DNA from: Antitrichia curtipendula
Lineage: Eukaryota > Streptophyta > Bryopsida > Hypnales > Leucodontaceae
DNA length: 64,000 nucleotides
Assembly (NCBI GenBank): GCA_951230915.1
Contig: OX579636.1
Location: 21,821,567-21,885,566 of the forward strand
Direction: 5' to 3'
The position numbers and the translations under genes are program-made. The stretch's first letter is position 1. Every line of letters starts with the position of its first letter. This document shows positions 5,181-28,109 of the stretch, one piece after another. The notes beneath the pieces were generated by a model. That model was given only the letters and a program-made list of their open reading frames with translations, did not search any database and was not told the origin of the DNA.

Positions 5181-5765
5181 TTGGACTATTTTGTGTCTCA
5201 TTGGAATGTTTCAAATTTTAGTGCATGTTTATAAAAGAAATTTGATTCTTTTTTGGCGTTGTAGAATATGGCCTCGTCAATGAGGTGTCAATCTCGGGCT
5301 GTTTTGTGTCTCATTTCAATGGTAGAAGTCTATAGTGCACGTTTTCAAATATTTTTTTGGATACTTACTTGGGCTGTAAAACACCACCTTGTTAACAAAG
5401 TATCAATTTGGGATTTTCTAGGGTCTCACTCAAACGGCACAATTTTAAGGCACATGTTTCCAATTCTTTTTTCAATTGCTAGCTTCGGTTGTACAACATG
5501 GCCTCGTTAACGAGGTGTCAATTTTTGAATTGTTTAGGGTCTCAATTGTGTGATACAAATTAAGAATGCACATTTCTAATTTTATTTTGGATTGATGATT
5601 TGGACTGAATTTCATGGCCTCGTTAACAAGGTGTCATTTTTAGACTATTTAAGATTTCATTTGGGCGATACAAGTTAAAGATGCGCGTTTCTAATTTTCA
5701 TTTGGAATTGTTGGTTTGGATTGAATTTCATGGCCTGTTGATGAGGTGTCAATTTTGGGGCTATT
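5178..5765 (+). repeat. 115-116 bp tandem repeat, about five copies
   Basis: The motif ATGGCCTCGTnAAnGAGGTG recurs at 5268, about 5383 (diverged), 5498, 5614 and 5730, a spacing of 115-116 bp. Units also share TTTnGGGTCTCAnTT and a TGGATTGnnGnTTTGG block. The array starts right at the possible CACTA right end and stops just before the ParB/methyltransferase-like fragment. Short reading frames inside it are by-products of the repeat. Confidence 0.85.
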
Positions 5766-6044
5766 TTGGAAGAAAAATGTAATAAGTGCATCTTATCGAT
5801 TTTTGAAAAAAAGCTTCATGGACGTTGATGGAGGGCTTATACAAGTGGAGTGGTTGGAACTCGTCATCAACAATGATTTCAAGCCTATGATTAGCATTCA
5901 CGAGGTTAGATACACATCTAATTATCTTTGCATGGATGTTGCATCGATCGTTCTTGTATCATAGTTTTGATTCAATTTGCTTTAGTTTTCAATGATTTTT
6001 TTACTATTAACTATAATTTGTTTTCAATATCCTATTCATTGTAG

Positions 6045-6650
6045 GCTCTTACCATCGTTGACAGTCAAAGTATTGATCCTACTTTTGAGGGACAAATGAT
6101 AGAAGAGGTGGAGCAAGATGTGCAAATTGGCCAAAAATTCAACTTCAATGCCATCATTAAGAGTATGCTATTCAACGGTGGTGGTCCAAGATCTCGATTT
6201 GATATACATTTGTGCAAGATGATTGGGCTTCTATTGGTGCATCCCTAGGTGCATCCTCTCTTTTAGACTCAAGTGAAACGATTGGAGGCAAATTTTGCTC
6301 ATGGATATTGACCAAGTAATCGTGTATTTTATCTGTCGACAATGAATGACAAGAGGCTTTGCAAGTTAGTCACATCTGAGATTGTGGAGACATGGGATGA
6401 ATGTTGGATACAAGAAAATGACCAATTTGAGTGTTGGTTGAAGTCTCAACCATCCATCTCATATTTGACAAACCATATGTTATTTGTATGGGATGGCAAT
6501 CATAGGTTGGTGGCTTGGTATGATTACATTCACAAAATGCATCGTCATGAGCGCTCGTGGCATATGCCCGTTGATTGTAGGTTTTGGGTATCAAAAGGTT
6601 GTACATGCATTCTATTGGAGGCTATTGTAGATAGATTTAGATCCTAATTA
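6045..6650 (+). pseudogene. Fragment of ParB/methyltransferase-like family gene (copy 1)
   Basis: The translated fragment aligns with exon 3 of the larger family copy at 10139-17025. A candidate splice acceptor lies at about 6044 (CATTGTAG before GCTCTTACC). Matching blocks are GPRSRFDIHLCKMI (large copy: SRMKIPLCRMV), NRVFYLSTMND (RVFYVFTSDEQ), a CWLKSQ block (VFLKSQ), and FVWDGNHRLVAWYDYIHKMH (YVCDGNHRQIAWMKHIQRLH). The DGNHR core is like the ParB/sulfiredoxin-type signature. Three in-frame stops lie in the first half (after VHP, PLF and AHGY), so it is a broken piece covering about one exon. No methyltransferase part is present here. An upstream stretch (about 5820-5910, ending at a possible GT donor) may be the preceding exon, but I could not match it. 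Confidence 0.7.
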
Positions 6651-8912
6651 GATTATCTAAACCAATAGTAAAGTTCATTCCTAGGGAGGTCAATTGAATA
6701 GGTTTGCTTCTACAACGACATAAGAATAACCAAATAGGATATTAAAACACAAAAGAAGGAAATGCTTCCAACTAATATTAATATAATTCCTTACAATTTT
6801 TCAATTAATTATTAATTTTATTAGTCACTCCATTCTTAAATTCCCTCAAGGTAAGGAAAATCTCCCAATTGTTAATCCTTGATCTTTTACACTTCATCTT
6901 TTGTCTTTAATCCCTCGCCAGCTTCATCTTTTCCAATTGGAATCACTGCAGCCTTCACCCACGACAAGCCTCCGTTTCCAATTTGTCTTGTCACTGCTTC
7001 TTGTCTCCTTGTTTGTTTACACCAGAATCTTGCTTTGCCGATTTGATCTTCTAAATTTGCTTAACCTCACGAATGGGCTTAACTAAATTTCTATTACTAC
7101 ACCTTAACACTTCTTACAGGCCGAATTGGAATTAGCCTTTATACTCTCAAAACTCTCCACTCTTGCTTCAACTTTCTTCTCCAACTTGAAATTTATCTTT
7201 TGACAATAATTCACAGGCTTTCCAAATTGTACGCAAAGCATTCACAAAATAAACATAACACTCGAGACTTAAAATTAAATCACATTCAGCTTCATTAACC
7301 CAACTTGGCATTTACGCACAACATCTTCCAGCATACATTCACAATTCCATTTACAAATTCAAACACACAAAATTAACGACTAATCCATTTGAACTTGCAA
7401 ACCAATTTGTAATTAATCAACCACACTACAACGACACACCAAACTCAAACTTAAATCATAATCATCCAAAGACCGGGCCAAGCACATGTTAATCACTCTT
7501 ATAAATTTCTTCATATCTTTCAAAATAACTGGGATCCATCCATTTTTCCATACTCTTGCACAAATAATCAATTCAGAACACAAAACATCAGCTTCATCTT
7601 CAACCTCTAGCACTTGGCAGACAAACTTGGATCTCCACGACAGAATGACAAACCCATATGATAACTCCCAATTTGGTTTACAAACTCATTCCAACTTATT
7701 CCACTCATAAATCAATTACTTACATACACTTGCGCTAAATTTTACTCCACTTCAAACAGGTGTTAAGCAACCGTACACACACAGACAATATTCTGATTAG
7801 ATTTTCAAGGACATTCACACACCAGACCAGCATCACCACCAACTCGATTTAAACCATCATTATATTAACTGAGTTGGTGATTAAATCACCGTTTACAATT
7901 TTTATTTTATTTTTAACTTCCTAATATCATCATCGATATAAATTTCCTATTCACTACAAGAGAAAGGGGTGTTTTAAGTGTGTTTTTAAGTATAGTCCTA
8001 GAGATAAGATATTAAATAATGACCTTTATGGAGATATTTAGTAAAATTTTACTAGATACACATGTATTTCTAGTAAATTTTTACTGAAAATCTCCATAAA
8101 GGTCATTACTTAATATCTTATCTCTAGGACTATACTTAAAAACACACTTAAAACACCCCTTTCTCTTGTAGTGATTTGATCTCTTCATCTTTCATAGTCC
8201 ATTTTACTCACTGAATTCCCATCTTCCTTCATCACACATCTTCTCCCTCACACAATTTCCTTTCCTACTGGTCTACATTTCCAACTTGACACTGGTTTGG
8301 TACACCATTGTGTAACTGCAAACTTAGCTCAAAATAACTTCATCCCGACTAGGACTCAAACACAAACTTCCACACACTCCTGGATCACCCTCGTAATACT
8401 GCAGGACTAAACTTTAACACACACATAAAATCAAACGACTTGGAAAACAAAAACATACACCAAACACAGCCAAAAGCTAGGACACGCACTGCATATACAA
8501 AATCAGCAGGTCCCTCCTTCAAAATTGCAGGAAGCCTAAATAAGATTTCCACTTACGGTTACCAATTTGGAAAATCAACTAACCGCATTCTAACTTCCGA
8601 CTTGAACTTCTTCATCCCAACAGCTTAGTTAAGAAAATCACAACTTAAACTACTTGGATAACATTCATCCTCATCCAATCCTATCATTCTTTTAGACTTA
8701 ACACCTTCCAACTTAAACATTCTCCAACTTGAACACTAACTGACTTAGACCTACCCAATTTGGAATTTACTTGTCATCAACTGGATTAAACAAAATGGAA
8801 TCTACAATTGATTCTAATACGGCAAAACGACTAATTTGGATGCAACCCAGAGCACATAAACTGCCATATTAAACAAAATACGCCAAAAAGTCACTCAAAA
8901 TTACAAAAATTA
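6651..8912. other. G-poor intergenic tract
   Basis: About 2.2 kb in which the plus strand is rich in C, A and T but strikingly poor in G, with scattered CAACTTG, CCAATTTGG and CTTCATC words. No gene is supported. The tract is interrupted by the CACTA MITE at 7952-8173 and ends at the target-site repeat of the Mutator-like element. Confidence 0.6.
7952..8173. mobile_element. CACTA-type MITE, 222 bp
   Basis: Almost the whole element is two long inverted arms of about 85-90 bp. They start CACTACAAGAGAAAGGGGTG on the left and end in its exact reverse complement on the right, and they differ at very few positions. The terminal CACTACAAGA is the hallmark of the CACTA (En/Spm) superfamily. The element is flanked by a 3-bp direct duplication, ATT at 7949-7951 and ATT at 8174-8176, the expected target-site size. 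There is no coding capacity, so it would need a transposase in trans. The near identity of the arms suggests recent activity, or hairpin-mediated homogenisation. Confidence 0.9.
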
Positions 8913-8922
8913 AAATCCTAAT
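8913..8922 (+). repeat. Left 10-bp target-site duplication (AAATCCTAAT)
   Basis: AAATCCTAAT occurs here directly outside the left GC-rich inverted end, and again at 23323-23332 directly outside the right inverted end, in the same orientation. Mutator-like elements usually make 8-11 bp duplications. Confidence 0.7.
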
Positions 8923-8990
8923 GGGGAATGCTGGTATGTGAGCGTGGAGCGGCGAGCAGCGAGCGGGAAGCGGGAATTGGTGAGCGGGGA
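8923..8990 (+). repeat. Left terminal inverted repeat of the Mutator-like element
   Basis: It starts GGGGAATGCTGGTATGTGAG and continues as irregular GAGCGGG/GAGCGGC units ending GGTGAGCGGGGAG. The right end (23254-23322, read on the minus strand) starts GAGCGTTGCTAGCGCGTGAG and ends in the same GGTGAGCGGGGAG block. Confidence 0.7.
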
Positions 8991-9084
8991 GCCACAATAT
9001 TAGGACTATAATATAATTTTTGGAAAGTGAGAAATTTGAAAATAGATTAAAGTTTAGGAAAAAGTTGAGGGAGGACTTGATGCT

Positions 9085-9186
9085 ATTGGATGAAAAGTGG
9101 ATGAAAAGTGGATGAAAAGTAGATGAAGAAGGTGGATGAAAAATTAGATGAAAAAGTGGATGAAAAAGTGGATAAAAAATTGGATG
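9085..9186 (+). repeat. GGATGAAAAAGT minisatellite, left copy
   Basis: About eight imperfect 11-13 bp units of the type GTGGATGAAAA. The same minisatellite lies in inverted orientation at about 22965-23110, just inside the right end. It is probably part of the subterminal region of the Mutator-like element. Confidence 0.8.
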
Positions 9187-10138
9187 CAAACTAATGAAGA
9201 ACTCGTATCCTAGTTCATTTAGAATGTGACAATAGCCGGCGAAGGCAATTTTGTAGCATGTGCGGTTTTAGGAAAACGAAGCCTCTACACGTTGTGATTA
9301 GTCGAGTACATAGTGTAGTACTTCAAAGTGGTTAGTAGACAATTACACGACATGGCTGAAAGAAGTGCACGACGACTGACACGGAGAGGGTGTTCGTATT
9401 TCGCAGTGTAAAAAGCTCCGCGAGATAATCTGGACAAAATAATCCTCTAACATTAATGCTTGGATAACAATGCAATTTCAAATCCTAAACTAATGTGTAC
9501 AACCGAAGACAAAAAAGAGTGGCAGATTACGCAAAGGAAGACAAATGCAGAACGGACAGTCCAACCCAGGGCAGGTGCATGGGCAAGAGGTCTTCAAGGT
9601 CCATGTCTTGGGCCCAAGAAGACTTCGGGAGTGTTGGCTTCTTCGAACAGGTATGACAATTTTTTTGGAAATATAGTTCACAATGATAAGTATTTTATGA
9701 AATCAAACACGTGGTTTCATGAACGAATAAAATTAATATAGTCTCGTCTCGACACCAAGAGATGCGTTTAGGGTTTAGGGCTCATGCAACACGGGACTAT
9801 CAAGTTCAAAGGTACCAAAACACAAATACCAAGTTCAATACGCGGTCAACGAAATTATATATATAATTCGTATATAAGTAAGTTCTGGACACAGTAATAA
9901 AAATGGAAACATTACGGTCCTCGAAGGGCACATCAAGAGAATGATATGTAATACTAAGGACAAGGGATGATACGACAAGCACAATATCGCAGGAAGATGG
10001 CAAAAAGTAGACAATGCATTCAGTAGAAATAAATAAAGGACCGGCAACAATGTAGAGAAAATAATTCCCGATTTAGGGACATAAGCATATACGGAAGATA
10101 TAAAAGTAGGGTTTGGAAGTTTATGATATAGAGAGATC
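9187..10138. other. Left interior of the element, no supported gene
   Basis: Mixed-composition DNA between the left subterminal minisatellite and the 3' end of the minus-strand gene. An interstitial plant telomere-type motif, TTTAGGGTTTAGGG (two units), lies at 9767-9780. Short open frames at 9460-9741 and 9490-9681 overlap on opposite strands and lack support. Confidence 0.5.
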
Positions 10139-11402
10139 TCATATTGTACTACCCTCGCTGTTTGACATTTTTGACTGTGATTCAACAGCACAGTCATCCA
10201 CGAAGTTTAGAACACGAGGATCTACCCACCGAGCTCGAGAGCTTGGCTTTAGCTCAAGGGCAATAAACTCTCCAACGTTGGACTCAGCATACACAGATAG
10301 CCTAAATGGTTTAGGGGGGCTTGGAAAGAACTTAGGCCTTCCAAAGAACGGCACATGTGTCAGAGACCTCACTTTCTTGGCCTGCCTGGATAATAGAATG
10401 AAGAGATAATTAGATTGAATGCTTAGTGGAATGAGAATAGACAATGTAAAGAATAGATTTTTGAGTTAAACTTACTTACTGAATCGAGATGTCTTCACAA
10501 CATGCTCAGGCTCCACGTCCTCTTCATCCACATCCTGAATTTCTGGAATATTCTGTGCCGGTGCCGGTCGAGAAAACCCATCCATGCGTAGAACCGATGC
10601 AATCAGAGCGTCAAAAATCTCTTTATCCTCCTCAAATGCCAAGACGTGCCGGCGCGATGCACGGCATGCTTGAATGCTTGATCCTGAAAACATCCATGCG
10701 ATTAAAAAAAATTACTTCTGAAAATCCCTTTCAGTTTGGTCTTGGTTAAAAAAATCAATGAATTAGAGAAGTTTTGTTACCTGTCGCTGCTGTGCAGTCT
10801 ACCACGACGTCCCCTGGTTCCGATAACGCCTCGACAAGCATTTGCATGAATTGTGGCGCCTTCTCTCGAGGACCTCTCCACGGAATGGAACCATTCATGG
10901 TGACATCTTCTTTGTTGCAGAAATTTTGGAGTATATCGTCCCTAGCCACATCCACATCCACCTCTTGATGGGATGGAACAAACTGGAATGGAAACTTCGA
11001 TTCGGTTTTGGGTCCCGACTCCTTCACTAAAAGAGAGATTGAGAATCGCATGGTCTGCAAACAATGGAGAGGTTAACATACAATAGATCAAAGAATCACA
11101 AGATTTGACAAAATATAAAAATAAAGAAATGTAATTACCGTTTTGGTTTGATCAACTGGCGATGTGAGATGTAGGTGGTTCATGCCGAACCACGTAAGAA
11201 GAATTCTAAAATTGTACGTCTTGCAACATCCAAGAAGGTGACTCTTATGTCGAGTGGAGGGCGCTGGATACATGACCAATAAGGCGCCCTTGTCGTGGAG
11301 GTACTCCTTCGCAAAGTCAAAAACGGGAACTAGGAACCCTTTCTTGAACTCATTCCAGTCGGGAATCGAGGCAAGCGGAGCAGACACAGTCGACACATGT
11401 AG

Positions 11403-11432
11403 ACCTTCAAGAACATCCACAAAGATGAGATC
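11403..11432 (-). other. Motif IV position of the methyltransferase-like domain, catalytic tetrad absent
   Basis: The sequence reads DLIFVDVLEG. In beta-class amino-methyltransferases this place holds D/N/S-P-P-Y/F/W. The third family copy (35404-35433) reads DLVAANILDG at the same position. Both lack Pro-Pro but share the pattern V/I-L-E/D-G, so the loss probably predates pseudogenisation. Confidence 0.6.
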
Positions 11433-14400
11433 CACTGCCTCTTGAGTACTCAATACACCATCGAAGTACCTGTCCTTATCAGTACAGTGCTGCAGAGTAC
11501 AAAGAGGTGTCAGTTAATTCACCTGGACATGGATTTGGAGCATCACACCATGGCCAGAACGAACATGTTCTAAAGACCTTCAATTGACATGTATTCTATC
11601 CATGTTCCAATAATGCACGAACAAATAAATGTTAACATGACTAACCATGTCTAGAAAGGCGAGGACGTCATCGAAGGCCTTTTCATCTGTAGGTAAGGAA
11701 CCCACTGACAAGTTCAGTATGCATTCATCAATGTCTGGAACGGCAGAAAGAGTTTGAACCGTTGGTGTCAGTCCATGTACAAGTCTCTCTTGAGTAAGGG
11801 AGAAGCCAGATGACCCTTCCCTAACGTCAGCTGCACTTGTGGTAGGTTGGGGATCCGGAGTGTAGGCTTTCCTCTTTGTCCCTCTCTTCTTCGACTTCTC
11901 CTAGTCCTTCTCAGCCTGAGCGGCCAGTCTCTTCATCTTGCTGTCCTCGGCCTTCTTCTTAGCCTCCTCCAGCTTCTCCAGTTTCTTCTTGTCTGATATA
12001 TCCCGTCGTTTTATGGCCTTCGCTCGAGCATCGGGATCCAGACCAGCGAACTCATCGAACTTTGGGTCCACAATCCCAGTGTCATTCAAAGTGTCAAAGA
12101 GTGCTTCCTCTTCGGGTGGAGTAGTGCCGAAGTTGCACTCGAGGTACCACAGGCAGGCTTGCAGGTGAGCACTGGTCCAATTCTTCAACTGCATAGGAGA
12201 AAACATGCAGTCTGGAGAAGAGCGATCCAACCATGTTGTAAGGAACGGCGGTAGATCTTCTTTGGAGATGGCCTTCTTGATGTACAACTCAAACTTGAAG
12301 TACCTACATCACCCCGAAAATACATAGTATCAGGAAGGGAAAAGTGGAGGGTGCAATGACGCCTCCTAGCCCGTCTTCCATTGGGCCCGAGGTCCACTTT
12401 GAATTCAAGGCTATTGACAGAACTTATAAAGTGAATCAATTAAAGTATATTGTCCGATACACAATGACCTGACCAACAAGGAAAGGGCAAAAACACTGTA
12501 CCGGTATATAACTCGCTTGACAGCCAGAATAGACCCTCTGTAATCTTTGAACGACTCAGACTTCTTGTATGCATCAGCACCCTTGAACACCCCCGTGTAC
12601 GCATGTTCCTAGAGCTTCATGCGCCAACTCTCGATATATTCTAACAGGGTCTTCGGCTCCATAGCGACACTGAGATCGATATAAATGTTATCAGATCGAA
12701 TGATTGCATCAAACATTTCAGAAGCAGAGTCCTCGATCTGGACACAGGATAATATGACAAAATATTAAGGGTCTCATGCACCATCAAAATATCCTACACA
12801 TTGAAGAAATACAATAGATGGATTATTCAAAAAGCACCAAACAAGACAATTCCAATGCTTACCCCAGCATACCAACATGCCTTTGCAAGAAACTGTAATA
12901 ACCTCTCCTCATTGATCGGTCTGGCCGGAAATCTACGTGCCTCTCGTGAGGGGCCGGAGGAATTCATCCATTTCAGCCACCTCACTTTGAATGATGGACT
13001 TGTATTGCATGTTGCAATCATTTGTAACTTCTCCAATGTTAATTCGGGGACAGAATATAAGCTCCAATGCCTCTCAATCTGCAGACAATCAATGAAAAGA
13101 GAGTGAGATGAATTGAACTGGAAACATCTGACTTCACAGAATTGAATAAAGGAAGACAAAATACCTCCTTCAACCACTCAGAACCAAGCGCGGGATTCGC
13201 AACCGCAACAATCTTTGACAGTTTCTTGTAGAGCTTCTTCGTAGAATCTTTAATCGAAACTCGCATGGCCATTGCCACTCCCTCCTTCGTAGCTTCACTA
13301 GGTGGAGTATCTTTGTTATACTTCCTGACTGCAGCATCAGCAGCCGACGCAATGTCTTGCTGAAGAAAAAGAAAACCGAATTCGGACCTCAACACGGTAG
13401 CACCAATTTAGAGTACAACGAAGTGATCCTTCACTCGTACGGAGCATGCAATATCATCAAATAGACAGAACTTCATACCTTGAATATGAACGACGTAAAG
13501 ATCTCAAGCAGCATACTGTACCAAGTCTTGCGAGAATTTTGGCTATAAGTGTGCGCTTCTTCTGGACTAAGGAGCTCATGGAATTTCTCAAGTCCCATGA
13601 CCCCATACTTCTGGACCCGATATAGGGTATGTACGAGGTTCGTTTTAATATGAGAATTCTTCGTCTGCCTGAACCAGAGAAGGACAAGAACATCAAATAT
13701 CACTAGAAACATGAATGAATTTAATCAGTACCAGAATTAGAGAACTCCAACACATGGATGAACCTAGCATGACCTCGCTTACTTGTTTATGTCGTGCATT
13801 GCCTGCATAGCAACTCCAATTCGATTCCTAGTGTCAAGGACAATAGCATCAACACTGACATGCCAAGCCGCCTTGGTGCTGTGAAGCCTCTGGATGTGCT
13901 TCATCCAAGCAATTTGTCTGTGATTACCATCACAGACATAAAACTTGTAATCCAGCAAATGCTTCAACGGTGTCTGCGACTTCAAGAATACGTTGAACTT
14001 GTCGTTTGCCGCATTCCAATGTGGTCCCCATTCAGTTTTCTCAGCATCTGAAAATACAGCTGATTGTCCCTGCTCATCAGATGTAAAGACGTAGAATACT
14101 CTTGCGCCTCGTCGTATCCTCGGCTAAATTGATTCTCTAACAATGTAAGATCACATTCCAGGGTTGGTCGTACCATTGGCATTGGAACCATCCTACATAG
14201 AGGTATCTTCATACGAGACTGATCAAAGAAAGTGAGCCTCAGACTGGAAATGATAGAAACTGTGTCCATCGTCTGGGATCGCCAAATGTCATCTTCCATG
14301 TAGTGGGGTTCAATTCCCCGAATTCTATCATCCTCCAGCTCGTCAACCTCGATGACCTCATCGGTGGAGCAGTCGTATGGTTCCTTCCACTATTAGCCAC

Positions 14401-14944
14401 ACACATGAAACACAAAATTAATAAATACAGATATTACTCCAATCAATGAATGGTAGACTTATGGGTGTGTGAGCCAATGATAAACCTTGTTTATATCCTC
14501 AAGAGAATGAACTTACTGGATTGAATAATCCAGGAGATTCAACCGCGGCCCCCCAATAAAACAAACTAAATGCCACATATGCATTTCTCTGCTAAGGATC
14601 TGTATTTTCCACAGCACAAAATATAAATGTCCTTGTCTCCATCTAATGCAAAGGTAACCTCATCATCTTGATGATTACATGTACAGAAGTCATGAACCTC
14701 AACATCATTGGATCCCAGTGAAGTACAAGTAGACTCAGGAGGGGGCATACGACCATCCCTATACATATCATCCAGTGCTTGATCTAGGTCACGTAATAGA
14801 TTGTCAAGGTTTACCACTGCCATGGGAACCTCCTCAGGCAGCTCAGGGACACCAACTTCTGCGCCGGCTGAATGGACCACTGTAACACCAGCCGTTCCAA
14901 TATCCTCTTACATTAAATCCTCAGAAGCCCGCACCTGCTAGCAA

Positions 14945-16800
14945 TATAGAGAATAGAGAAGACCACACAATTAGTACATGGATAAAAAAAAAGACAAAAC
15001 TGTGTAGAACAAGCAGGTATGTTGGACATAAGAATAAAAGGATACTATATTTGACCCATGAGCACATGCATCCAGAGTCCCTCTCGGGGCCAAGATAAAG
15101 CTCCCGGTGATCAAGCCAAGCAACATAGAGAGACCGAATATAAGAGGTCGTGACTATAACAAATGGACCAAATGAAAAACAAAAAAGCGAACATGCTTGG
15201 CAGGCATGGCCGGCTCCCTGGTGCGGTGACCACCAGAACACAAAGGATCGGGTGAGAACTCCCAATCAAGGCTTAGCTCCGTCAGTTGGACGCATACCAG
15301 TCAAGGAAATATGTTCATGACCCCGTGACCCTTCTTTTTCTCTCGGGGCCGAGATGAGGTCCCCCATGACAAATCCATGCAGCAGTAATACAAAACTGAA
15401 GAGAACGTGACATGAAACCGATAGGAGAAACAAAAAAAAAATATATCCAAAGGGATTGGCAGGCATGGCTCTCACTCTGGTGCGGCGACCAGATGGTCAC
15501 AGGGCGCGGGTGGTATTCCCGAACGGGACTGAGCTCCGTCACCAGAACAAGAACGATCGAACGAAGTTATGCATGACCCCATGACCCTTTGACTTCTCTC
15601 GGGGCCGAGACAAGGTCCCCCATGACCAAGCCATGCAACACTAACACAAAACTGAGAAGAGCGTGACATGAAGCCAATAGGAGAAATCAAAAACAAATAT
15701 ATCCAAAGGGATTGGCAGGCATGGCTCTCTCTCTGGTCCGGTGACCAGATGGTCACAGGGAGCGGATGGTATTCCCGAACGGGACTGAGCTCCGTCACCA
15801 GGACCAGAACGATCAAAAGAAGTTATACATGACCCCGTGACCCATTGACTTCTCTCGAGGCCGAGACGAGGTCCCCCATGACAAATCCATGCAGCAGTAA
15901 TACAAAACTGAAGAGAACGTGACATGAAACCGATAGGAGAAACAAAAAAAAAATATATCCAAAGGGATTGGCAGGCATGGCTCTCACTCTGGTGCGGCAA
16001 CCAGATGGTCACAGGGCGCGGGTGGTATTCCCGAACGGGACTGAGCTCCGTCACCAGAACAAGAACGATCGAACGAAGTTATGCATGACCCCGTGACCCT
16101 TTGATTTCTCTCGGGGCCGAGACAAGGTCCCCCATGACCAAGCCATGCAGCACTAACACAAAACTGAGAAGAGCGTGACCTGAAGCCAATAGGAGAAATC
16201 AAAAACAAATATATCCAAAGGGATTGGCAGGCATGGCTCTCTCTCTGGTCCGGTGACCAGATGGTCACAGGGAGTGGGTGGTATTCCCGAACGGGACTGA
16301 GCTCCGTCACCAGAACCAGAACGATCGAACAAAATTATGCATGACCCCGTGACTCATTGACTTCTTTCGGGGCCGAGACGAGGTCCCCCATGACCAAGCC
16401 ATGCAGCAGAATACAAAACTGAAGAGAACGTGACATAAAACCGATACGAGAAACAACCAAAAAATATATCCAAAGGGGAATTGCTGGCTTGTCCGGCCTC
16501 TGGTGCGGTGACCAGATGGTCACAACGGAGCGGGTGGTTTTCTCGAGAGGGACTGAGCTCCGTCACGAAACACTCTCGATCAAAAGAAGTTATGCATGAC
16601 CCCGTGACCCTTTGACTTCTCTCGGGGCCGAGACGAGGTCCCCTGTGACAAATCCATGCAGCAGTAATACAAAATTGAAGAGAACGTGACCCTAGCACGT
16701 AGACGAAACCAAAAAAAAAAAAATGAACACACTTGGCAGGTTTGGCCCCCGCTCGCTGAGGTGACCAGCTGCCTTGAACGGAGCGGATTGGGCTTGCCTT
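14945..16800. repeat. 256-bp tandem repeat (seven copies) in intron 1, with ABAB higher-order structure
   Basis: The landmark TCTCGGGGCCGAGA (with variants) recurs at about 15082, 15341, 15597, 15853, 16108, 16375 and 16620, a spacing near 256 bp. Units also share GGCAGGCATGGCTC, GACCAGATGGTCAC (a palindrome) and GGGACTGAGCTCCGTCACCA. Copies two apart are more alike than neighbours: 15341 and 15853 share ATAGGAGAAACAAAAAAAAA and CTCACTCTGGTGCGG, while 15597 and 16108 share AGGAGAAATCAAAAACAAAT and CTCTCTCTGGTCCGG. The array therefore spread as a 512-bp dimer. It fills most of the inferred intron 1 of the minus-strand gene. Long reading frames in it are repeat artefacts. Confidence 0.9.
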
Positions 16801-16908
16801 AAACCCTAATAAGACCTGTCTCTGGATTCAGCCATTCACCCCGTGGGCGACGCGTACTGAGTCTTGCATGCGAGACAGAATGAGAAGTTGAGAGTTCAAA
16901 ACCCTTAC

Positions 16909-17025
16909 CTGGTTCCGAGGAGAGGCTTCTTCCGGACGCACTATTGCCTGTCCCGAGTTTGCCGAAGGTCCTGGGATTGCGTTCGACCTCCCCACCCTTG
17001 GCCGTAAGTTGTGAACCCCATCCAT
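16909..17025 (-). other. Inferred exon 1 of the ParB/methyltransferase-like gene
   Basis: A 39-codon open exon starting MDGVHNLRPRVGRSN and ending at a good donor (CAG then GTAAGG). It joins in phase 0 to the exon starting at 14934 (acceptor TAGCAG). No homologous copy in the window confirms it, so it rests on frame and splice signals only. An upstream in-frame ATG at 17061 would add 12 residues. Confidence 0.45.
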
Positions 17026-18653
17026 CTTTGCTTCGCTCGCCCTAAACTTCAAATAGTCCACGCTCCAACGACGTCAGAAATCAAAAATGCAAGGAGAACA
17101 ATTTTGTCGAAAGGAATGCACCGCTGCGCCAGTCCGGGCTACCTCGCTGCCCTTCTCTTCCCCGCCGTTCTTTACCGCTCGTGTCGTCCCGACGCGCCAG
17201 CTGGATCCCCGCTGTCACACACTTCCCGGTCGCCCCATCCTTTCTCGCCGACCTTGACTTCCTGGGAGAACTGGTGCGTCATTAGTCCTTTGGATGGACT
17301 TTACCTTGGATTTCTCTGACGGTGTTTCAGTATTTCTTAGTCCTGAAATTTCCCATCCGTTGTTTCCTAAGGTAATGGATAATCCATATATCTTGTGCCT
17401 TCTGTCTATGGGGATTAATTTTGTCGATAGTGTGTCAGTGATTCGATTAGTATAATTTATAAAACGATTATAACGTTGTGAGTTTACAAGTTCATTAATG
17501 TTATTAACCTTAATAACATGTTGATAGAGTCACTTAATAGTATTTTCTGTATTCTCAAATTTTAATATGAAGTTCTACGTAATGGTCTCTTACAGCAGTG
17601 ATGAAATCCGTATCAGCCCTGATGGACACGCATAGACAGTGTCGAACATACTCGACACAATTAAACTCATGGATACTGGCATTTATGCTGTTACGTTTGT
17701 TTCTGATCCAGATTTCTTTGATGTACAGTAGTAATTGTTCGAAGGGTATGGCCTTTAGGGTCCCCCATGTATAGTCGAATAATGTTGGGGTAGTTCAGGA
17801 TGTTATATAATGATTACTCATACACATTAAATACTCCTGGGTTGTTGTTGATACGAATGATCGAACTGTATTCATCTCAAACGGTAAAGTCACAGTTTTG
17901 TTAGTAGTAGCAAATAAAATAGTATATCACATAATATGCATCTTCATGACGATGGATATTAGTAATTCAAGTTCATTCCGTGCCTGTGTATCTTGACGCA
18001 TAGCCGTCAGGATTCCCCTGTTCATCACTTTAAATACATTTTAAGAAGTAACTGATTGTCAAGTGATTGGCTGGAGAAAGCTGACATTGTATTTAATTAT
18101 TGTCAGACATTTATTGTATTTTATTACTTAATTAACTTCGTACCATCATTGTGGGAACAAAAATTAATGCCTACCGTCCTAATTAGTGGCCGGGATATCC
18201 ATTTTTCAATCGCAGTGCCTCTTCGGAAGGTTGCCTTGTCATAGAATTTGGTCTTTATTACAAATGTTTCGGTTATATTTTATTGCATACAATGTGCTTA
18301 CATGTTAACGTTGGAGGAGTCTATATTCTTAGTTTTGTAGGACGGCCGAAATCCTCTTAACCAACTCAGTTGTTACTTCTAGTGAGGTCATAAATTAATT
18401 ATAAATTTCATTATATATAATGACAGCCGTAACGACAAAATTGTGTAATGAGGCGTTCCTAATATTGGTTTCATTGAATTATAGATAAATTATCATCCTC
18501 CGCATCGTCCGATATGCAGGATTCAGTTTATGTGCTTGCTGTGTTATTTCATGTACCTCCCTGGACTATGAGTTCGTAGTTTACGTGTTAGAGAGCGTCA
18601 CATGGTGATCGTGAGATTGTTTGTGTCCATGCTGTGAATTGGAATATTTAGCA
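17026..18653. promoter_or_regulatory. Shared 5' region between the two divergent element genes
   Basis: About 1.6 kb lies between the inferred starts of the minus-strand ParB/methyltransferase-like gene and the plus-strand transposase. The first 300 bp, near the minus-strand start, are GC-richer; the rest is AT-rich with no supported gene. By position it should hold both promoters, but no specific TATA box or operator is claimed. Confidence 0.4.
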
Positions 18654-21600
18654 ATGTCAGAGTTTCTGGATATGGTGATCGTGAATAACGCCGCTGATGG
18701 GGTTCCTATACTGTTTCCACTGGACCTTGATGGTCTCGCTGCGGTGTCCGCCTTTCGATTGGGTATTAGATTTAACTTATATGCGGACTCTCTGCATATC
18801 GATGAAGAAATATCTGATGTAGAGACGAAAGTCCTAACTCACACTATTGGTCAAGTACCTATTTTGGAAGGCGTGAATAGATTGTGGCACTTGAAAGCTG
18901 GGAAATATAGGGCCTATGGGGTAAGTAATTCTGATCGGTCGGAATCCGCAGACTTAGTGCCTGATCAGCGTTTTTCTTCTTCATCATTTCAGATGCCACC
19001 TATGAAGGTTCCTAAAGTTGAGCCTGGTGTCTTCACAGTAACCCTTCTCAGCGATGACTCTGACACTGAGAACACGGAACCAACTTTGAAAGCATGGGAT
19101 CGGTCGTCAAATATTCCAGTCCCTAGTTCTAATTTGGGAGAGCAGACTGTTATTGTGATTCCCAGTACCAAAACTGCTTCTGTAGCATCGGTAATTGATT
19201 GTTTGAAAGGACTTCGTGGACGGAAGGGATGTAGAAATGCTATGTCTAAAATAGATTACGACACAATTACAACACACAAGGTTACAGTGCTTCCTTCGAA
19301 TTTCAATGGCGACGTTATTTTTGAATTACCAGCTGTTGATTCGTTGGGGGCTCCATCATATGCGAAACAAATGATTGGTATGGATAAGAGGTACGATGGT
19401 CATTTGTGGACAAAAACGATTACTACAAATATAACAAACAGTCATGGCTTGTCGTTTCGTACCTCCGTATGTGTCGGTCATCTCAAATGCGAGAACGGGA
19501 ATTGCGAGTACTTGGGTCAAGTGCAAAGAACAAATCCAGTAAACGAGTTGGAGTGGGAAGGCTTCTCTCCTAGCCCGCTTGATATTGGAGTACCGCATCC
19601 AACTGGCTCTACCCTTGTCTGCAAGATTTGTAAGGAAGCGCCAAGTTGTATATCTCGTTGCGCTGTGAGGGTATATTACGTCTTGGGGAATCCGCTTATA
19701 ACTCGTGCATTTGTTCATCTCGGCCATCATCAGCATCCCGTCAAGGATGGTGAGCTTCGCGACATGAAGGAGAGGACTCGAAGCCTAATAGGAGATCAAA
19801 TGGAGAAGACACCAATTGGCAGAAATTCAGCCATTGTTTTGGAGGCCACAAAAGAACTGTTGGGTGAACTTCTTCTACGCCCTGATGGAGAATTGCAGAA
19901 GACTTTGAATATTAAAGAACTCGTACCTGTCCTGGATAAATGTAAGTATTTCAGTTCACCCAGTATTCGTAACGAGGTCGCTTCTTTCAAGTACCTGAGG
20001 AGGTTTGCAGTTATGGATAGCATAACAAAGTTGCGGGGGGCAAGTACTTGGGCATTTGTTCAAGAGAGCAAATTCCCAGGTCAAGGCTCTGACAAGGACA
20101 AGGTCTTTGTCTTCAAAATGTCGGAAGTAGGTCCAGGCAGTGGAGTAGACTTGGTCAAGCGTATGCAAAGTGGTGGTGACCTCCAGAATGCTTGGATGAT
20201 GTTTGATCATGTGAAACGGGTAAAATGATGGACTACCATGGCATGCCACGTTTATGACAGTGTATACTGTCAAGTAATAACCATTGCCATGTGCGACATG
20301 CAATCAGAAGACTGTATTGCACAAGTCATATTCTGGACAAACCTAAATTCAGTTCTACAGAGACATGGGGTCCCGAAAACTCAGTTCAAAGGGTTCATGG
20401 CAGATAGTGCCCAAGCAAATTGGAATGCGATACAAATTATCTACGGATCAGGTGACACTAGTGTACCCATGGAGAATCGAGAGCGGACTTGCCTTTTTCA
20501 TTGGACCCAATCCATGGAAAAGCATACAAAGGCTGATATACGGGCGGACTTACAAGATCAACACCGACTTCTATGCAAACAGTACAAAAATGCCATTTCA
20601 ACGGAACAATCTGAAGAACGTTACCTTGCGATTAAAGTATGGTGGACCTCATCCGATGCCACAACTGAAGACGGCCTACATCGTTTGGAACTTTGGCTCT
20701 CATTTTGGCACTTTCGTTATCGACAATGGGGGGGGTTCATGCAACTAGTAAGTGTATTTCTTCAGCAATTCTTATTTTTATGTTTTGACAAGTGGCAAGT
20801 GAATTAATGATGTTAGTCGTTTATACTAATTTGACATGCTTCCGATGTCTTCAGGATCTGTTTGACACGGAGAAGGCCGAGATGCCCTTGTGCAACCTCG
20901 CCGAGACTGTACACAATAAGTGGCTTCAACAGTCTGGAAATCGTGGGAACGATTTATACATTGCCACTGTTGATGATTTTGTCAGAGCGTTTATGCAGAT
21001 GGTAAGGCATTACCAATACCTTAAAGGCGGAGATGCGGGGACGGGTCCTGGAAAGGAAGAATTACTACTCCGCGTTGCCCAACGATCAGCTCAACGAAGC
21101 GGGAATCCAAAGGTGCTCACTGAAGCTATTTCAAGCCTTCCATCAGTTCAAAAATTTTTTAGTAGACAGCCTCATTTTGAAGGTGAAGAAGTATTTGGAT
21201 CACAGAAAAGAAAGGCGGACCACCCTTTGGGATGCGAGCATGATTCACATAGACCGGATAAAGTGAACTTCTCACATCCCCGAGTACAGACAAGATCGTG
21301 GAAGGCTTCCACAAGTGCTCCTTCTCTAACCCCAATTGTAGAGGATGTGTGTCCAACTGTGGAAGTAGACGTACCCTTGTTTATTGAAACGCAGCAGGAA
21401 TTCCAGTGCCGTACTCAAGGTCCTTCCTTCCATGTATCATGTATCCAAGAGACCGACTGTGATGTCCTGACCTGGCACATTGCAAGACTTCCCCAAAAAT
21501 CTGCAAAGGCATGTTTTGTCCTTCAAGTGAATACAAAGAAGAAATGCACAACAAGGATTGTCCAAAATAGCGTCAGCACAGCCGCACCAACATATACAGG

Positions 21601-22324
21601 TATGATGGTGAATTACAAGAAAAATAAAAACGAGCGTATGGAGTTCTATTTTTGCAATGATGATATAGAACGTTGTGTGAAGGGGACGAAGCGGAAGTGG
21701 GTGTTGTCTAAACCCCCCGTTCCTGACATTTGGCCTGTTAAAAGGGGCACTGCCTTGTCAAAGCAAGAGATTTTAGCCTTAGAATCAGCTGGCTTCAGAC
21801 TTCCTCAACGTGAAGTAATTTCACCTCGCAGGTTGTTTGGGGGAGAGTGTGGGGTTGACTTGGTCAATGCTTATCCCATTCCATTGGCACCTGACGAACA
21901 TCCTAAATTACGATCAGGAAAAATCATTCGTCGGAACCTGAAGGCACCTACAGGGAAGCATGCAAACAATACCGCTTCAGCTATGATATTGAATGCACAA
22001 ATTCATAGAGTGACTATGGTTCCTCACCCTGGATTTGGATGCATAGTTTGTTTAACTTCTGGAGTAGAACCGCGGACTGAGCAATAGATGCTTACGATTT
22101 CATCGTTTCCAGAGTGCACGTGTCCTTATTTCAAAGAGATGAAGACAAAGGCCTTAGGAAAGCGCGGTCAATGGTCAAACTGTAAGCACCTTTATTTCCT
22201 TCTTACCGTCATTTGTAACCTGCAATCCTCAGTACATGGCTTCATTCATGCTCCCAGTTTTAGTTTCAATGAGGTGAAGCTAATACTTCTTAGTGGGATA
22301 CTTAACCACTTAGACCCTAATTAG
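18654..22324 (+). pseudogene. Mutator-like (MULE) transposase with SWIM zinc finger, two in-frame stops
   Basis: The frame runs from ATG 18654 (or 18621) to 20747, then an intron 20748-20854 (GTAAGT...TTCAG), then 20855 to about 22324. An optional 72-bp intron, 18921-18992, keeps phase. N-terminal part: Cys-rich stretch CKICKEAPSCISRC, then VHLGHHQHPV. The middle is MULE-like: WTTMACHVYDS, FKGFMADSAQANWNAIQ (candidate catalytic Asp), and CLFHWTQSMEKH. The C-terminus has a SWIM finger (22114-22189): C-T-C, 19 residues, then C-K-H, which in MULE transposases binds DNA. The order of MULE domain then SWIM is typical of MuDR-type transposases. Breaks: TGA at 20226-20228, just before WTTMA, and TAG at 22085-22087, just before the SWIM finger. 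Frame is otherwise kept, so decay is recent or the stops are bypassed. It is the likely mobilising gene of the 14.4-kb element. Confidence 0.75.
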
Positions 22325-22960
22325 AGAGAAAGTGCTTATACATTCCCAGAGATCTTCATGTGACCACAAGTGTTATTAATGAAGTAGTAGTGAGACCAGA
22401 AGGGTCCCTACTTGCATTTTCTGAACCTTGTAGGAGTAGGCCATCCTATCAAAATAATGTACTGGTGTTCTCTGTATTGCTTTTTTAGATTCAGACATTA
22501 TGTTTTGTGTTTTGAATTAGCATTGTATGAATTTCCACATTTAATTTCAGTACACCGCATAAAGCAATGGAACCTTCTGAGTTTTGGTGTACAAGTGAAA
22601 TGCTACAATTCTGTATAAATGTTTTATGATTCCGAATTGTACAACAAAGGAATGCATAGTTAACTAGGTTCATTAACCATGCAGCCACTTCAAAACATCA
22701 GTTCTCTATAACACTGATCTATTGTCTTCCACGGTTATAAAGCATTGTTATTACGCGGTCTTAGGTCCTCAGTGCGTTGAACCCTCTTTTGTAAATGTAG
22801 TGTCGTCGTTCTCGTAAAAGGCAGTATTTTTCAGCGAATCCTTGTCATCAGTTAGTCATTTGGATTTTGATGAGTTTGTCATTCGGATAGTTATCCATTT
22901 TCATGAGCGAGTTCCAATTTCTGAAGCTCTGATGTTGTGAAGCTGTCCCATTTATTATCA
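22325..22960. other. 3' flank of the transposase, no gene seen
   Basis: AT-rich DNA between the last transposase stop and the right subterminal minisatellite. Short frames here have no recognisable similarity. Confidence 0.5.
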
Positions 22961-22964
22961 CCCA

Positions 22965-23110
22965 CCTTTCCCATCCAATTTCTTCATCCACTTTCATCTA
23001 CTTTGCTACCCATTTGTCATCCAAATTTTTCATCTACTTTTTGGTCCACTTTTCATCTACTTTTTGGATCCACTTTTCATCTACTTTTTTCATCCAATTT
23101 CATCTATTGT
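22965..23110 (-). repeat. GGATGAAAAAGT minisatellite, right copy (inverted)
   Basis: Repeated CATCTACTTTTTGGTCCACT-like units on the plus strand are the reverse complement of the left minisatellite at 9085-9186. Reading frames here (Phe/His/Ser-rich) are compositional artefacts. Confidence 0.8.
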
Positions 23111-23253
23111 TCGCCCCGTGCTTCGTCCATTTCTATGTACATCCGGATTTTTTTTCATCCATTTCCATCAGTTTACATCATATTTTTTATTCGTGTTCAT
23201 TCAACTTTATTTTCTTATTTTGAAGAATTTCTTTTTAATAATTAAAATCTGCC

Positions 23254-23322
23254 CTCCCCGCTCACCACTTCCTGCTCCCCGCTCTCCGCTCCCCACTCCC
23301 TGCTCACGCGCTAGCAACGCTC
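23254..23322 (-). repeat. Right terminal inverted repeat of the Mutator-like element
   Basis: A GC-rich run of CCCGCTC-like units, inverted relative to 8923-8990. Its outer end abuts the direct repeat AAATCCTAAT. Confidence 0.7.
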
Positions 23323-23332
23323 AAATCCTAAT
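23323..23332 (+). repeat. Right 10-bp target-site duplication (AAATCCTAAT)
   Basis: Exact match to 8913-8922, immediately outside the right inverted end of the Mutator-like element. Confidence 0.7.
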
Positions 23333-23645: not shown

Positions 23646-23749
23646 ATTACATTTTTGCAATTGTCAATATATCTATTCTACATTTTAATCCAAAGTTAAT
23701 CTTATATCGTCCAACTCTTCCTAGAATTTGAAGTATTGTATCAATTTAA

Positions 23750-24230
23750 TATATTACATATGAAAAATAAGGCAAAACTGAAAACATACAGAGGAATATA
23801 CAAAACACTATCGTAGGAATCTAAGTATTGCTTTACTGAGAATAATTTGTATAACAGGGCATCTTCATTAAATGTTGGCATTATTGCGTCTCTTTTTTGC
23901 CAACCTTCAATCCACAATATCCCCCAACATTGAGTAGGTTTTACCATTTCTTATTTGTACACATGTTCAAAATTCATATAGTACTAAGTGCCACAGATAT
24001 GGAACCTCACTAGTCTAATCAACAGACTTTCACAATAATCCAAACTTGAAATCATTATCAAGGCATATTGTGGTTAAAAATGGCACTGACACAAATAAGT
24101 CACTTAAAATAGGAATAGAAAATAGTAAATCGTACCTGGCCATAACAGAACATCCAACTGTTGTATCCAGCCATGTAATTTTCGACCATAGGCACTCCAG
24201 TCATTCTAAAAAGGTTTACTTTGAAATGCA
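23750..24230 (-). pseudogene. Captured fragment of a kinesin-12 gene (exons and introns)
   Basis: Read on the minus strand, this matches the intact kinesin gene at 51057-64000 in two blocks. The first matches about 52510-52815: exon 3 (GVPMVENYMAGYNSWMFCYG here), the whole of intron 3, and the start of exon 4 with the P-loop region damaged. The second matches about 54706-54840 (intron 13). The roughly 1.9 kb between is missing, and the join falls at a shared TGAA. Because introns are kept, it came from genomic DNA, not from a retroposed mRNA. Splice acceptors are destroyed and the P-loop motif TGSGKT is lost, so it cannot make a motor. It lies between the Plavaka-type transposase and the left end of that element. 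Confidence 0.9.
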
Positions 24231-24425: not shown

Positions 24426-27400
24426 CTACCTAAGCTCAATACAATCTATCAATCTTGATAATCCAGTTGGTGGTAACTCCTCATACATCTTCACCAAGGC
24501 CAATTCTTTTGTTATAGTTATATTGTTTTCATTGCACAAACTTAGTTTGAAAAGAAGTCTAATCTCACCAAAAGATGTGTCAATATTTTGATCACCCCCT
24601 TCTTCCATTTGTATAGCTACATAACTGTACCATGGTGCTCCAAAAAATTGATTTGTAGCACGTCCATACATGGGCCAATCTCCAAACCTTTCCCCAGGTC
24701 CTGCAGGAATAGCCAATGCATTGTACACGTGAAGCAACATCCCACCATCAAATTCTGAATCTGGCAAGCTATGGAAGTTATTTTCACTCATGTATATGTC
24801 AAGTGCTAGATGGAGATTATCCTGCAACTCTAGTTGAGAATCCAATAGAATCCTTGCATTGAGTGGTATGATCACTGCAATTGATGAGAATGATAAATCA
24901 TTTGTATCTACCCATTTCATACGTAAGTTTGCCTTTGCTCTTGATAATACATTTTCGCCAATAGAAACAGCCTGCACATTAATAAACTTTGAGTTACTAA
25001 ATTTTTATTAGTAAATTAGTAAATGATATCTACATTTTGTAAATATAAACTAAAAACTTTTCAAGTTCCATTAGAAGAGGAAAGGGTACAATGAAAGCTT
25101 ACTCTATCCAAAGCTGTTGTTTTTTCTTTCTTGATTCGGTTTTTGAAGCCGTCCATGTGGTGAGTGAGCTTGCGAAGTGATTCAAGGCGTCGATTGTGAT
25201 TTATTATTTGTAATGTTGCGGCTCGCTTGTTACTAGCTCTGTAGGCTGTCTTCATCAACACAATAATACAATATGCATTTGTTCATATTGATTTGTGCTA
25301 TACTCCCAAGGTAATCCAGATCTCTCGATACATCAGAAAAATGAGTCATCATATGAACTTTGATGATGTTGAAGTTAGACTTTTGGAACTCTGATAAAGT
25401 ACTTTTAAAAGAATTCACAATCCTGTTACAAATCCAAACAAAAAAAAAGTTTAGTATATTTACAGTAGAGAAAAGAATAGAGACACAAACATACTCAAAT
25501 GTAACTAATTCTAACATTTAACAATTACACTTGAAGTAAAAATTAGTTTAGATTATTAAATGAAATTTGCACCTTGTTGAGAGTAAGCCCAATTGTTCCA
25601 AACTTGCATTTGTATGCACACTACTGCGTGCACCTGCTTGATACCACTTTAGAAAAAGAACAAAAGTTTGAATCATTGGTTCTGGAAATAGACCTATCAT
25701 ACAAGCAATTATTACCTACACACCATAAACAAACACCGTAAATAACAATAGTAAGTTTAGCTATCAAATTTAAAATGTTTAACATCATTCTATTAATATA
25801 TAATAAACTTGTAAATTTGACAACAATGACACTTCAAATAATAAAAATGCCAAAAGGTAGAATTAAAATAAAAGATATCAAAGAAAAATAACATATACCT
25901 GCATAACCGCCCGATGTTCAAATGCAACAAAGTTGGCGTTTGATGTAAAATACCCTCCCTTGTCGTTCCCAGGAATTCTAAATGCTAAAAACCGAGCTAC
26001 TTTTTTTAGTTCCAACAGACGTCTATCCATTTCAATGAATGCTTTCCGATTCAATGCGAAACCCCCATCTGCCATTTCTTTTAAACAAGAAACTAATGTC
26101 TTGAAAATTCCAATGTCAGATTGATGTAAAATATCAATATGAATTGCTTTGTAAGGGTTCCCAAGCTCAGTATTGCCTCCATTGAACCCCCACAATGCAC
26201 ACTGCAAATCAATTTCATATAAAACATAAAAGAAGTTAATTTAATGAATGCAAATTAAGTATAATTTGCTAATGAAATGATTATTTGTATGACTGACTTG
26301 ATTGTAAGAATTTCTTTATTTGGAGCAAAAAATGGTTAAGTATGAACTATCAAAAATGGTCAAGTAATGTATAGTAAGTATCAACTTACAGGAATTGGAT
26401 GCACAGACCACATTTTTGAGATGTCATCAGCTTCTTTAGCAGTCAACTGATTATGAATGGATACCTTCATGCTGTTGAATACCTCTTTCATTTTTTCTTC
26501 TGTTCGAACTTCATAATTGATGGTTGACAATGATAAATTCTCTTTCTTGCACAAGCATTTGCTACATGGGTATTGACACATGTTTGTGTCATACGTGCAT
26601 GTAACTTTGCAAGATTCAGGATGATCACAAATGAAGGAATATAAAAGTGGATACACCCACCTTGGTGTCCCAAAAGGATCCAACAGATGCAAGCCTCTGT
26701 CAAATTCAAACACAAAGTTAAAATTACTTACAAATTAGTAAGTCCTTAGAGTGCTAAAAAACACATACAAATGCAAGTTTATGGCAAATTTAAATATAGA
26801 ATTACAATCTATAATGAAGTATAGAATTTCTTACGTGTAGCTGATGGGTTTGAGTGGATCAAGAATGATAGCAAGACATTCTTGGAAAACTTGTAGGACA
26901 CGGTCATGTTGAAATTTTGCACTTTTTCCTGCAACATGCAAAGAAATGTGTGGGCTATTGAAATTGTAGTACAAAACCATTTCCAATGAAATAACAAGTT
27001 GAAATTATAAGTTGTACCTGGAAGAAACTTGATTACAAGAAGTATAGCCAATAAAACATGGCCCTCAGCTTCTCCCCGATTTTCACAGGCAATATTAGCC
27101 AATGACATTATTAAAGGCCAACCAGACACTCTTCGATCATTTGATAAGGTGGTTTGATCACTATAAAATATCAAACCAGCTATTACACTTTTTGGTGAGT
27201 TGATATGATCTTGCATGGCTATCCACCACTTCCTGTATTAGGGGTGGTATATGATTCTGTATAATTTGGCCAAAGTTTGAATTTATCTACATTTGAAGGC
27301 GTTGAAAATAGCTCTGATAAAGCATTAAGAGGATTCTTTGAGTAAAGAATTATTTCATCCAAGTCTCCATCCTTTCGTGGTATTACAGTTTTACTCCATG

Positions 27401-28097
27401 CCTGCCACCAAATAAACATATTACATTATAACAATATAAGTTATAACCTTTCACATTTAACATAAATTCAAATGTCAAATAAACATATCATATTATAACA
27501 ATATAAGTTATAACCTTTCACATTTAACATAAATTCAAATGTCAAACAATCATATCATATTATAACAACATAAGATATACCCTTTGACATTTAACATAAA
27601 TTCAAATGTCAAAAGTTGTTTACCTTATCTTCTTCTGTATTTAACTCTTCATATTGTTCAAGCTCCAAAATAGTCTTGAAAGCAATTGTGCTCAACTCAA
27701 ATAAAGGATTAAACAATGTCCTGAGGAAGAGATCAATGTCTGATCTTGACAAACCCATTTGATTCCTGCAGTGTCTAATGAAATGGAGTAGATGCACTGA
27801 TGAATCAAATTGTTGTGTATCAGGATTTCTCTCCAATCTTTCCTGTTCTAATTCAATCTCAGCATCTAGGCTACACGAGCTGGGGCCTCCATTCTCCTCC
27901 ACACATGTGTTTCTTCTAGTTAAAACTTCTATGTTTTCAGCTTCTCTTTGAAGTTCAACATGATTAAAAACCAATCTTGGTCTTTTGAAATTCAAGAACT
28001 TGCATTTGCCATTATTTTGATGACTTTTAAGAGCACCAATATTAGCAAAATTTGTACCCTTGCACTTTTCACAAAATAATTTTGGCTTTGGAGCCAT
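24426..28097 (-). pseudogene. Plavaka-type transposase (CACTA superfamily), decayed
   Basis: About nine exons on the minus strand, separated by AT-rich introns. The first (28097 to about 27623) starts MAPKPKLFCEKCKGTNFAN, a C2H2-like finger (C-x2-C, then H-x5-C), and ends in an acidic helix. Later blocks match the Plavaka pattern: LIFYSDQTTLSNDRRVSGWP, LLDPFGTPRWVYPLLYSF followed by a Cys-rich cluster, a GNPYKAIHIDILHQSDIGIF block (about 26150), NFNIIKVHMMTHFSDV, LMKTAYRASNKR and a C-terminal exon (24971-24426) with GAPWYSYVAIQM. Frame breaks lie near 27240 (after NTGSGG) and near 25262 (before LMKTAYRA), so it is probably inactive. Plavaka elements are best known from fungi; the assignment rests on remembered motif order, not a search. 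It faces away from the plus-strand 371-aa gene. Confidence 0.65.
27424..27615. repeat. 66-67 bp tandem repeat, three copies, intronic
   Basis: ATTATAACAA recurs at 27426, 27492 and 27559. Each unit ends ACATAAATTCAAATGTCAAA. It lies in the first intron of the Plavaka-type transposase. Confidence 0.9.
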
Positions 28098-28109
28098 TGC
28101 ATTACATGT

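Follow-up and report, generated by a model that had tools for sequence, protein, structure and literature searches.

The moss Antitrichia curtipendula carries, on contig OX579636.1 of assembly GCA_951230915.1, a gene that is predicted to join a ParB-like domain to a domain resembling beta-class DNA amino-methyltransferases. We analyzed this gene within a stretch of 64,000 nucleotides of the contig (positions 21,821,567 to 21,885,566, forward strand), which we call the window, and all coordinates below are those of the window. The gene is on the minus strand, from 17025 down to 10139, and lies inside a large DNA transposon with ends like those of Mutator-like elements (MULEs). The element contains these features:

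8923 to 23322, no strand assigned: DNA transposon of 14,400 bp with a terminal inverted repeat
8913 to 8922, plus strand: left 10-bp target duplication
23323 to 23332, plus strand: right 10-bp target duplication, the same 10-mer as at 8913
8923 to 9201, plus strand: left terminal inverted repeat region with subterminal RTRGATGAAA repeats
22980 to 23322, minus strand: right terminal inverted repeat region with the RTRGATGAAA repeats inverted
15316 to 16690, no strand assigned: 256-bp tandem array in intron 1 of the ParB-methyltransferase gene, between the two genes
18615 to 22087, plus strand: transposase-like gene, divergent from the ParB-methyltransferase gene, with an in-frame stop in the window copy

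Copies of the 10-mer AAATCCTAAT stand at 8913 and 23323 and nowhere else in the window, one at each end of the element, flanking the inverted repeat. The terminal inverted repeat aligns without gaps, with 57 of the 80 outermost bases identical. Over arms of about 280 to 340 bp the alignment score was 242.5, and 300 single-base shuffles reached at most 140, a control that is weak because the arms are low in complexity. The RTRGATGAAA repeat is concentrated in the arms, with four of its six plus-strand matches in the left arm and six of its seven minus-strand matches in the right arm. MULEs are described as having target duplications of 8-11 bp and long terminal inverted repeats (PMC6446971), and both traits are found in this element.

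A search of the genome (400,189,583 bases in 303 contigs) using exon 9 of the gene as the query gave 150 scored matches from 1,127 candidates, distributed over ten large contigs. At least 28 of these, including the window's own, were full or near full length with 86-100% identity. The later spread proposed in the initial annotation of this DNA is thus strongly supported. The ten next best matches were fetched with their surroundings as sister copies. All ten start at the first bases of the element and so share its left end. The right end was located in seven of them; six have a perfect 10-bp duplication, each different, and copy c07 has none. No right end was found in c04 and c10, and the fetched stretch of c06 ends too early. 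The transposase-like gene is present in eight of the ten sister stretches (cut short in c06); in c02, c07, and c11 neither of its two aligned segments contains a stop. The 256-bp array differs in length between copies. The sister copies prove the element, which belongs to a large DNA transposon family with MULE-like ends.

The initial annotation had described a plant gene family with one copy in a transposon. We rejected this description because the element ends, the 10-bp duplication, and the divergent transposase-like gene are common to the sister copies. The gene under study is itself a transposon gene and is better read as belonging to a family of transposons in a plant genome. Because the profile libraries are silent on the transposase, the label MULE-like rests on the element ends. 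We call the gene at 18615 to 22087 transposase-like based on its place in the element and on a D...A / CxxH pattern that we take to be a transposase motif and that library scans did not support.

The ParB-methyltransferase gene was modelled with 12 exons that have GT-AG borders and total about 1,239 conceptual codons:

16909 to 17025, minus strand: exon 1 (tentative), with a GT donor; equal length in eight of ten sister copies, unmapped in c04 and c10
14517 to 14934, minus strand: exon 2 region, 3' boundary provisional; Cys-rich segment with a premature stop in the window copy
13783 to 14389, minus strand: exon 3, ParB/Srx-fold domain with CDGNHR; 1-nt deletion in the window copy
13479 to 13668, minus strand: exon 4, from splice borders and sister-copy lengths
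13165 to 13359, minus strand: exon 5, on the same basis
12863 to 13078, minus strand: exon 6, on the same basis
12502 to 12737, minus strand: exon 7, with a premature stop in the window copy
11646 to 12303, minus strand: exon 8, Lys/Glu-rich stretch with a premature stop in the window copy
11139 to 11489, minus strand: exon 9, motif IV strand (family form D-V/I-P-E/D-G)
10781 to 11054, minus strand: exon 10, motif X region and motif I (DCTAATG), matching PF01555
10476 to 10683, minus strand: exon 11, segment after motif I with an acidic residue (FEED)
10139 to 10385, minus strand: exon 12, ending in a TGA stop

The spliced gene of about 1,240 codons described earlier therefore stands as a structure, and the window copy of it is broken by the three stops and the deletion. 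None of these four lesions is present in any of the ten sister copies, and each of the three stops differs from the sister codons by a C>T or G>A change. Exons 3-12 have equal lengths across the sister copies apart from single-base indels; c03 and c09 are both broken. The product of exon 2 is Cys-rich (of the type CTC ... DDDIxIxCCGxY ... CxCG), with a varied form in loci L030, L032, L033, and partly L029. An apparent frameshift and TAG in exon 2 were considered as further damage and rejected; the length of this exon is the same in all ten sister copies, so the anomaly reflects the provisional exon 2/3 junction. We also rejected an alternative code in which TAA and TAG specify Gln. A stop-free open reading frame (ORF) of a kinesin gene in the window has 113 CAA or CAG codons and no TAA or TAG in 1,887 counted codons, a composition that such a code would not leave.

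The DGNHR block noted in the initial annotation sits in exon 3. A fold search with the exon 3 domain matched solved members of the ParB/Srx fold, and the top 14 rows were all ParB/Srx proteins, in agreement with the ParB assignment. PF02195 (ParBc) matched none of 95 family members at E<=1. Weak Pfam matches among these members were to DUF1015 (7 of 95), DndB (one), and DUF6551 (one), all of which are presumably ParB-like. In a viral structure library the best E was 1.6e-3, with ParB-type phage proteins in the top rows and no clear closest relative. Bacterial, plasmid, and phage ParB, Noc, and KorB proteins share the ParB/Srx fold with this protein, and its DGNHR can be set beside the GERR motif of ParB. 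Unlike them, it has no Pfam-detected helix-turn-helix and carries a methyltransferase-like domain.

This second module lies about 500 residues past the ParB/Srx module. Its motifs follow the beta-class order in exons 9-11, as the initial annotation had proposed, and its N6_N4_Mtase-like character is upheld by PF01555 matches at or above the curated cut-off of 26.7 bits (26.7-27.9 in pieces of the window copy and 28.3 in a sister copy). These matches are local, covering only the last quarter of the profile; all five full domain sequences scanned matched. The best PDB sequence match was M1.HpyAVI (5hfj/5hek; E 0.003-0.008), and a PDB profile search with exon 9 alone gave one chance-level match. 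A predicted model of the domain was poor (predicted local distance difference test score 55.9). With this model, all 50 matches listed by Foldseek were N6-adenine methyltransferases, and VIA-align returned methyltransferases mixed with Alba and IF3 folds.

The beta-class DNA amino-methyltransferases M1.HpyAVI, CcrM, and MboIIA have the same order of motif IV followed by X and I, and match PF01555. The moss family differs from them in having D-V/I-P-E/D in place of DPPY and DCTAATG as motif I, which deviates from DPFxGSG. Motif IV of N6_N4_Mtase has the pattern (D/N/S)-(P/I/L)-P-(Y/F/W), and instead we found D-(V/I/M)-(P/L)-(E/D), lacking an aromatic residue, in all 13 aligned exon-9 sequences. 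Three exon-9 matches outside this alignment read DVPE, DIPD, and DVPK. The canonical pattern does match four exon-10 relatives, in each case away from the place of motif IV: three have N-(I/L)-P-W directly before motif X, and the fourth has D-L-P-F in read-through sequence.

Proteins of this kind have been described in other eukaryotes. According to a report on the brown alga Ectocarpus, the giant 21.5 kb DNA transposon Sola1-1_Ec32 encodes a 1,104-aa protein with ParB-like and DNA methyltransferase domains, on the strand opposite the transposase (PMC12477816). The same report also cites similar proteins in transposons of green and red algae (Iyer, Abhiman and Aravind 2011; Petroll et al. 2025) and terms the giant red algal elements EnSpm. 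The moss gene likewise encodes both domains in one protein, inside a DNA transposon and on the strand opposite the transposase-like gene, a likeness in layout. The two differ in that Sola1-1_Ec32 is an element of a brown alga assigned in that report to Sola1, and the element studied here is from a plant and has 10-bp duplications and long inverted ends. Since the architecture has been published for eukaryotic transposons, the kind of protein is already known. A full-length protein search scored 7,994 candidates and gave no match at E<=1e-3. The initial annotation had suggested an old capture of the fusion from a prokaryotic mobile element; scans of viral and prokaryote contigs gave no relative. 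We found no report of such a gene from bryophytes in the literature searched, the coverage of which excluded most subscription journals. As far as that literature goes, what is apparently added here is a plant element that has MULE-like ends and is present in high copy number, a motif IV of altered form, and direct evidence of selection amid methylation-type decay.

These comparisons bear on whether the domains are real and active. The single-sequence scores are weak, no more than 1.6 bits above the PF01555 cut-off, and the lack of ParBc matches could also be taken to mean that an unrelated protein resembles these motifs by chance. The uniform ParB/Srx results of the fold search, the PF01555 matches in every full domain sequence scanned, and the same domain pair reported in the Ectocarpus transposon (PMC12477816) argue otherwise, and the present evidence nearly excludes this explanation. 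The protein could instead be a working N6-adenine or N4-cytosine DNA methyltransferase that is targeted by its ParB module and marks its own element. The Asp of motif IV is kept in 13 of 13 exon-9 sequences and that of motif I in 10 of 10 exon-10 sequences, which together with the PF01555 scores are consistent with activity, and the report on Ectocarpus makes the same prediction for its protein (PMC12477816). Against this, where DPPY has its aromatic residue the 13 aligned sequences carry Glu or Asp and sequence P0012 carries Lys, an older copy in the window (described below) has Asn in place of Asp, and the GxG of motif I is usually AxG. We regard a working amino-methyltransferase as possible, if rather doubtful.

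To examine selection, we took exons 3-12 of sister copy c05 and compared them with those of five subfamily loci, whose exon 9 is 57-74% identical. The proportion of differences was 0.193-0.252 at nonsynonymous sites (pN) and 0.740-0.803 at synonymous sites (pS), with both upper values from L031 (pN 0.252, pS 0.803). By part, the ParB exon had a pN of 0.196-0.331, the middle exons 0.178-0.234, the methyltransferase exons 0.176-0.285, and exon 12 0.268-0.344. In the transposase-like gene pN was 0.208-0.369 at the three subfamily loci with this gene. Comparison of c05 with L033 gave a dN/dS of 0.093; pS is saturated in the other four comparisons, so dN/dS is approximate. These data show purifying selection on the predicted ParB-methyltransferase protein between subfamilies. 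By contrast, the ratio of nonsynonymous to synonymous changes among 309 singletons in 11 near copies was 0.97 of that expected under neutrality. Of the singletons, 247 were C>T or G>A, at 0.27 per CG, 0.29 per CHG, and 0.09 per CHH site. Methylation at CG and CHG is typical of plant transposon silencing, and the C>T decay after insertion matches the pattern expected of it. Constraint between subfamilies together with neutral singletons indicates that the gene is constrained while the element propagates and that copies decay freely after insertion.

Upstream of the first copy in the L031 stretch, and on the same strand, a further ParB-methyltransferase copy lies at 9065-9973, of which exons 10-12 were seen. 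This suggests a nested or tandem insertion.

Selection and gene arrangement bear on two further explanations. MULEs are prone to acquiring host gene fragments (PMC6446971), and the gene could be a captured host gene, carried along as a Pack-MULE-like passenger without serving the element. This is very improbable given the constant exon lengths and divergent position across copies, the recurrence of the gene pair in three of five subfamily stretches, the contrast between selection among subfamilies and neutral decay after insertion, and the 150 scored matches over ten contigs. The protein might otherwise be a co-factor for transposition, acting in end binding, synapsis, or copy-number control, with a methyltransferase fold that only binds DNA or S-adenosylmethionine (SAM). 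The divergent pairing with the transposase-like gene, the similar constraint on both, and the inverted subterminal repeats fit such a role. However, it leaves unexplained the retention of both the motif I and motif IV Asp, and transposases usually need no partner of the ParB-methyltransferase type. We consider a co-factor role unlikely.

The reading we favor, with confidence near the middle of the scale, is that a transposon family with MULE-like ends carries this as an accessory gene, whose most likely role is self-marking or anti-silencing. The protein may help the element resist host silencing. It would act on the element's own DNA, with the ParB module as a nucleotide-dependent binder on the terminal repeats or on the 256-bp array between the genes. 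The methyltransferase-like module would mark or shield the element DNA, so that host cytosine methylation fails to silence it. VANC proteins are described as anti-silencing proteins of Arabidopsis VANDAL elements (PMC10398659). As here, the protein is encoded by the element, the element has noncoding tandem repeats, and host silencing is the opponent; we infer the likeness of role from this arrangement. A more specific form of self-protection, which we think quite unlikely as stated, has a ParB-type nucleotide-switch clamp on the element repeats and a methyltransferase fold that no longer performs canonical amino-methylation (D-V/I-P-E for DPPY). The latter would serve as a SAM-dependent reader or shield, or as a writer of another modification, and would keep host CG and CHG methylation off the element.

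Several observations weigh against the self-marking role. Motifs IV and I depart from the canonical forms, and the methyltransferase model is poor with mixed VIA-align matches. In the N-terminal, ParB, and middle segments tested, Pfam detected no DNA-binding domain, a helix-turn-helix included. Pfam and NCBIfam scans of the transposase-like protein gave no meaningful match, to a MULE DDE domain or otherwise, and the fetched stretches of subfamily loci L030 and L031 show no transposase. None of the 11 copies, the window's and its sisters, is intact over exons 3-12, and the dN/dS estimates carry the saturation noted above.

The window contains further remains of the same gene family:

6108 to 6632, plus strand: older, diverged copy, its ParB exon (exon 3), 71% to sequence P0026
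32954 to 36266, plus strand: exons 4-11 of what is taken to be this older copy, with exon 9 62% to P0009

Exon 3 alone was found at 6.1-6.6 kb, and exons 4, 5, and 8 of the second piece are weak matches (E 0.002, 0.03, and 0.03). The initial annotation had counted three diverged copies in the window. We reject this count in favor of two, since the outer pieces are complementary exon sets on one strand and are read as one older gene. On the simplest reading of their layout, intron 3 of this gene was probably split by a stretch of about 26 kb in which the transposon lies. Tandem repeats of about 115 bp are found at 5183-5766, upstream of the older exon 3, parallel to the 256-bp array. Between the halves lies a 397-aa ORF (30349-31542, plus strand) with no family match above cut-off.

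Other features of the window include a near-perfect (95%) palindrome of 224 bp at 7951-8174 that resembles a miniature inverted-repeat transposable element. At 24426-28115 on the minus strand are two ORFs (27609-28115 and 24426-25004) without a match in library scans, which we take to be like the ends of a Plavaka/KDZ-type transposase. An inverted kinesin-gene fragment at 23701-24216, including non-exon sequence, lies 30 kb from the matching gene part (52516-54911) and is joined across a 1.9-kb internal deletion (52817-54702) away from splice sites. Past the kinesin exons, a long coiled-coil-like ORF that exceeds the window contains an in-frame coding array of about seven copies of 222-nt and 213-nt units (62121-63742). 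Exons of a GDSL-lipase gene are at 39982-42584 on the plus strand (PF00657 in 41484-41876). The kinesin and GDSL-lipase exons, the structure of the introns, and the CHG-type decay all indicate plant DNA.

Transposon accessory proteins of this barely studied class have been reported from brown, green, and red algae, and the A. curtipendula element, which is high in copy number and has MULE-like ends, extends the class to a plant. It adds evidence that selection acts on the predicted protein as the element moves, with copies that are mutated in a cytosine-methylation pattern. This makes testable the question of whether transposons may use a bacterial-type binder-plus-methylase against host silencing.
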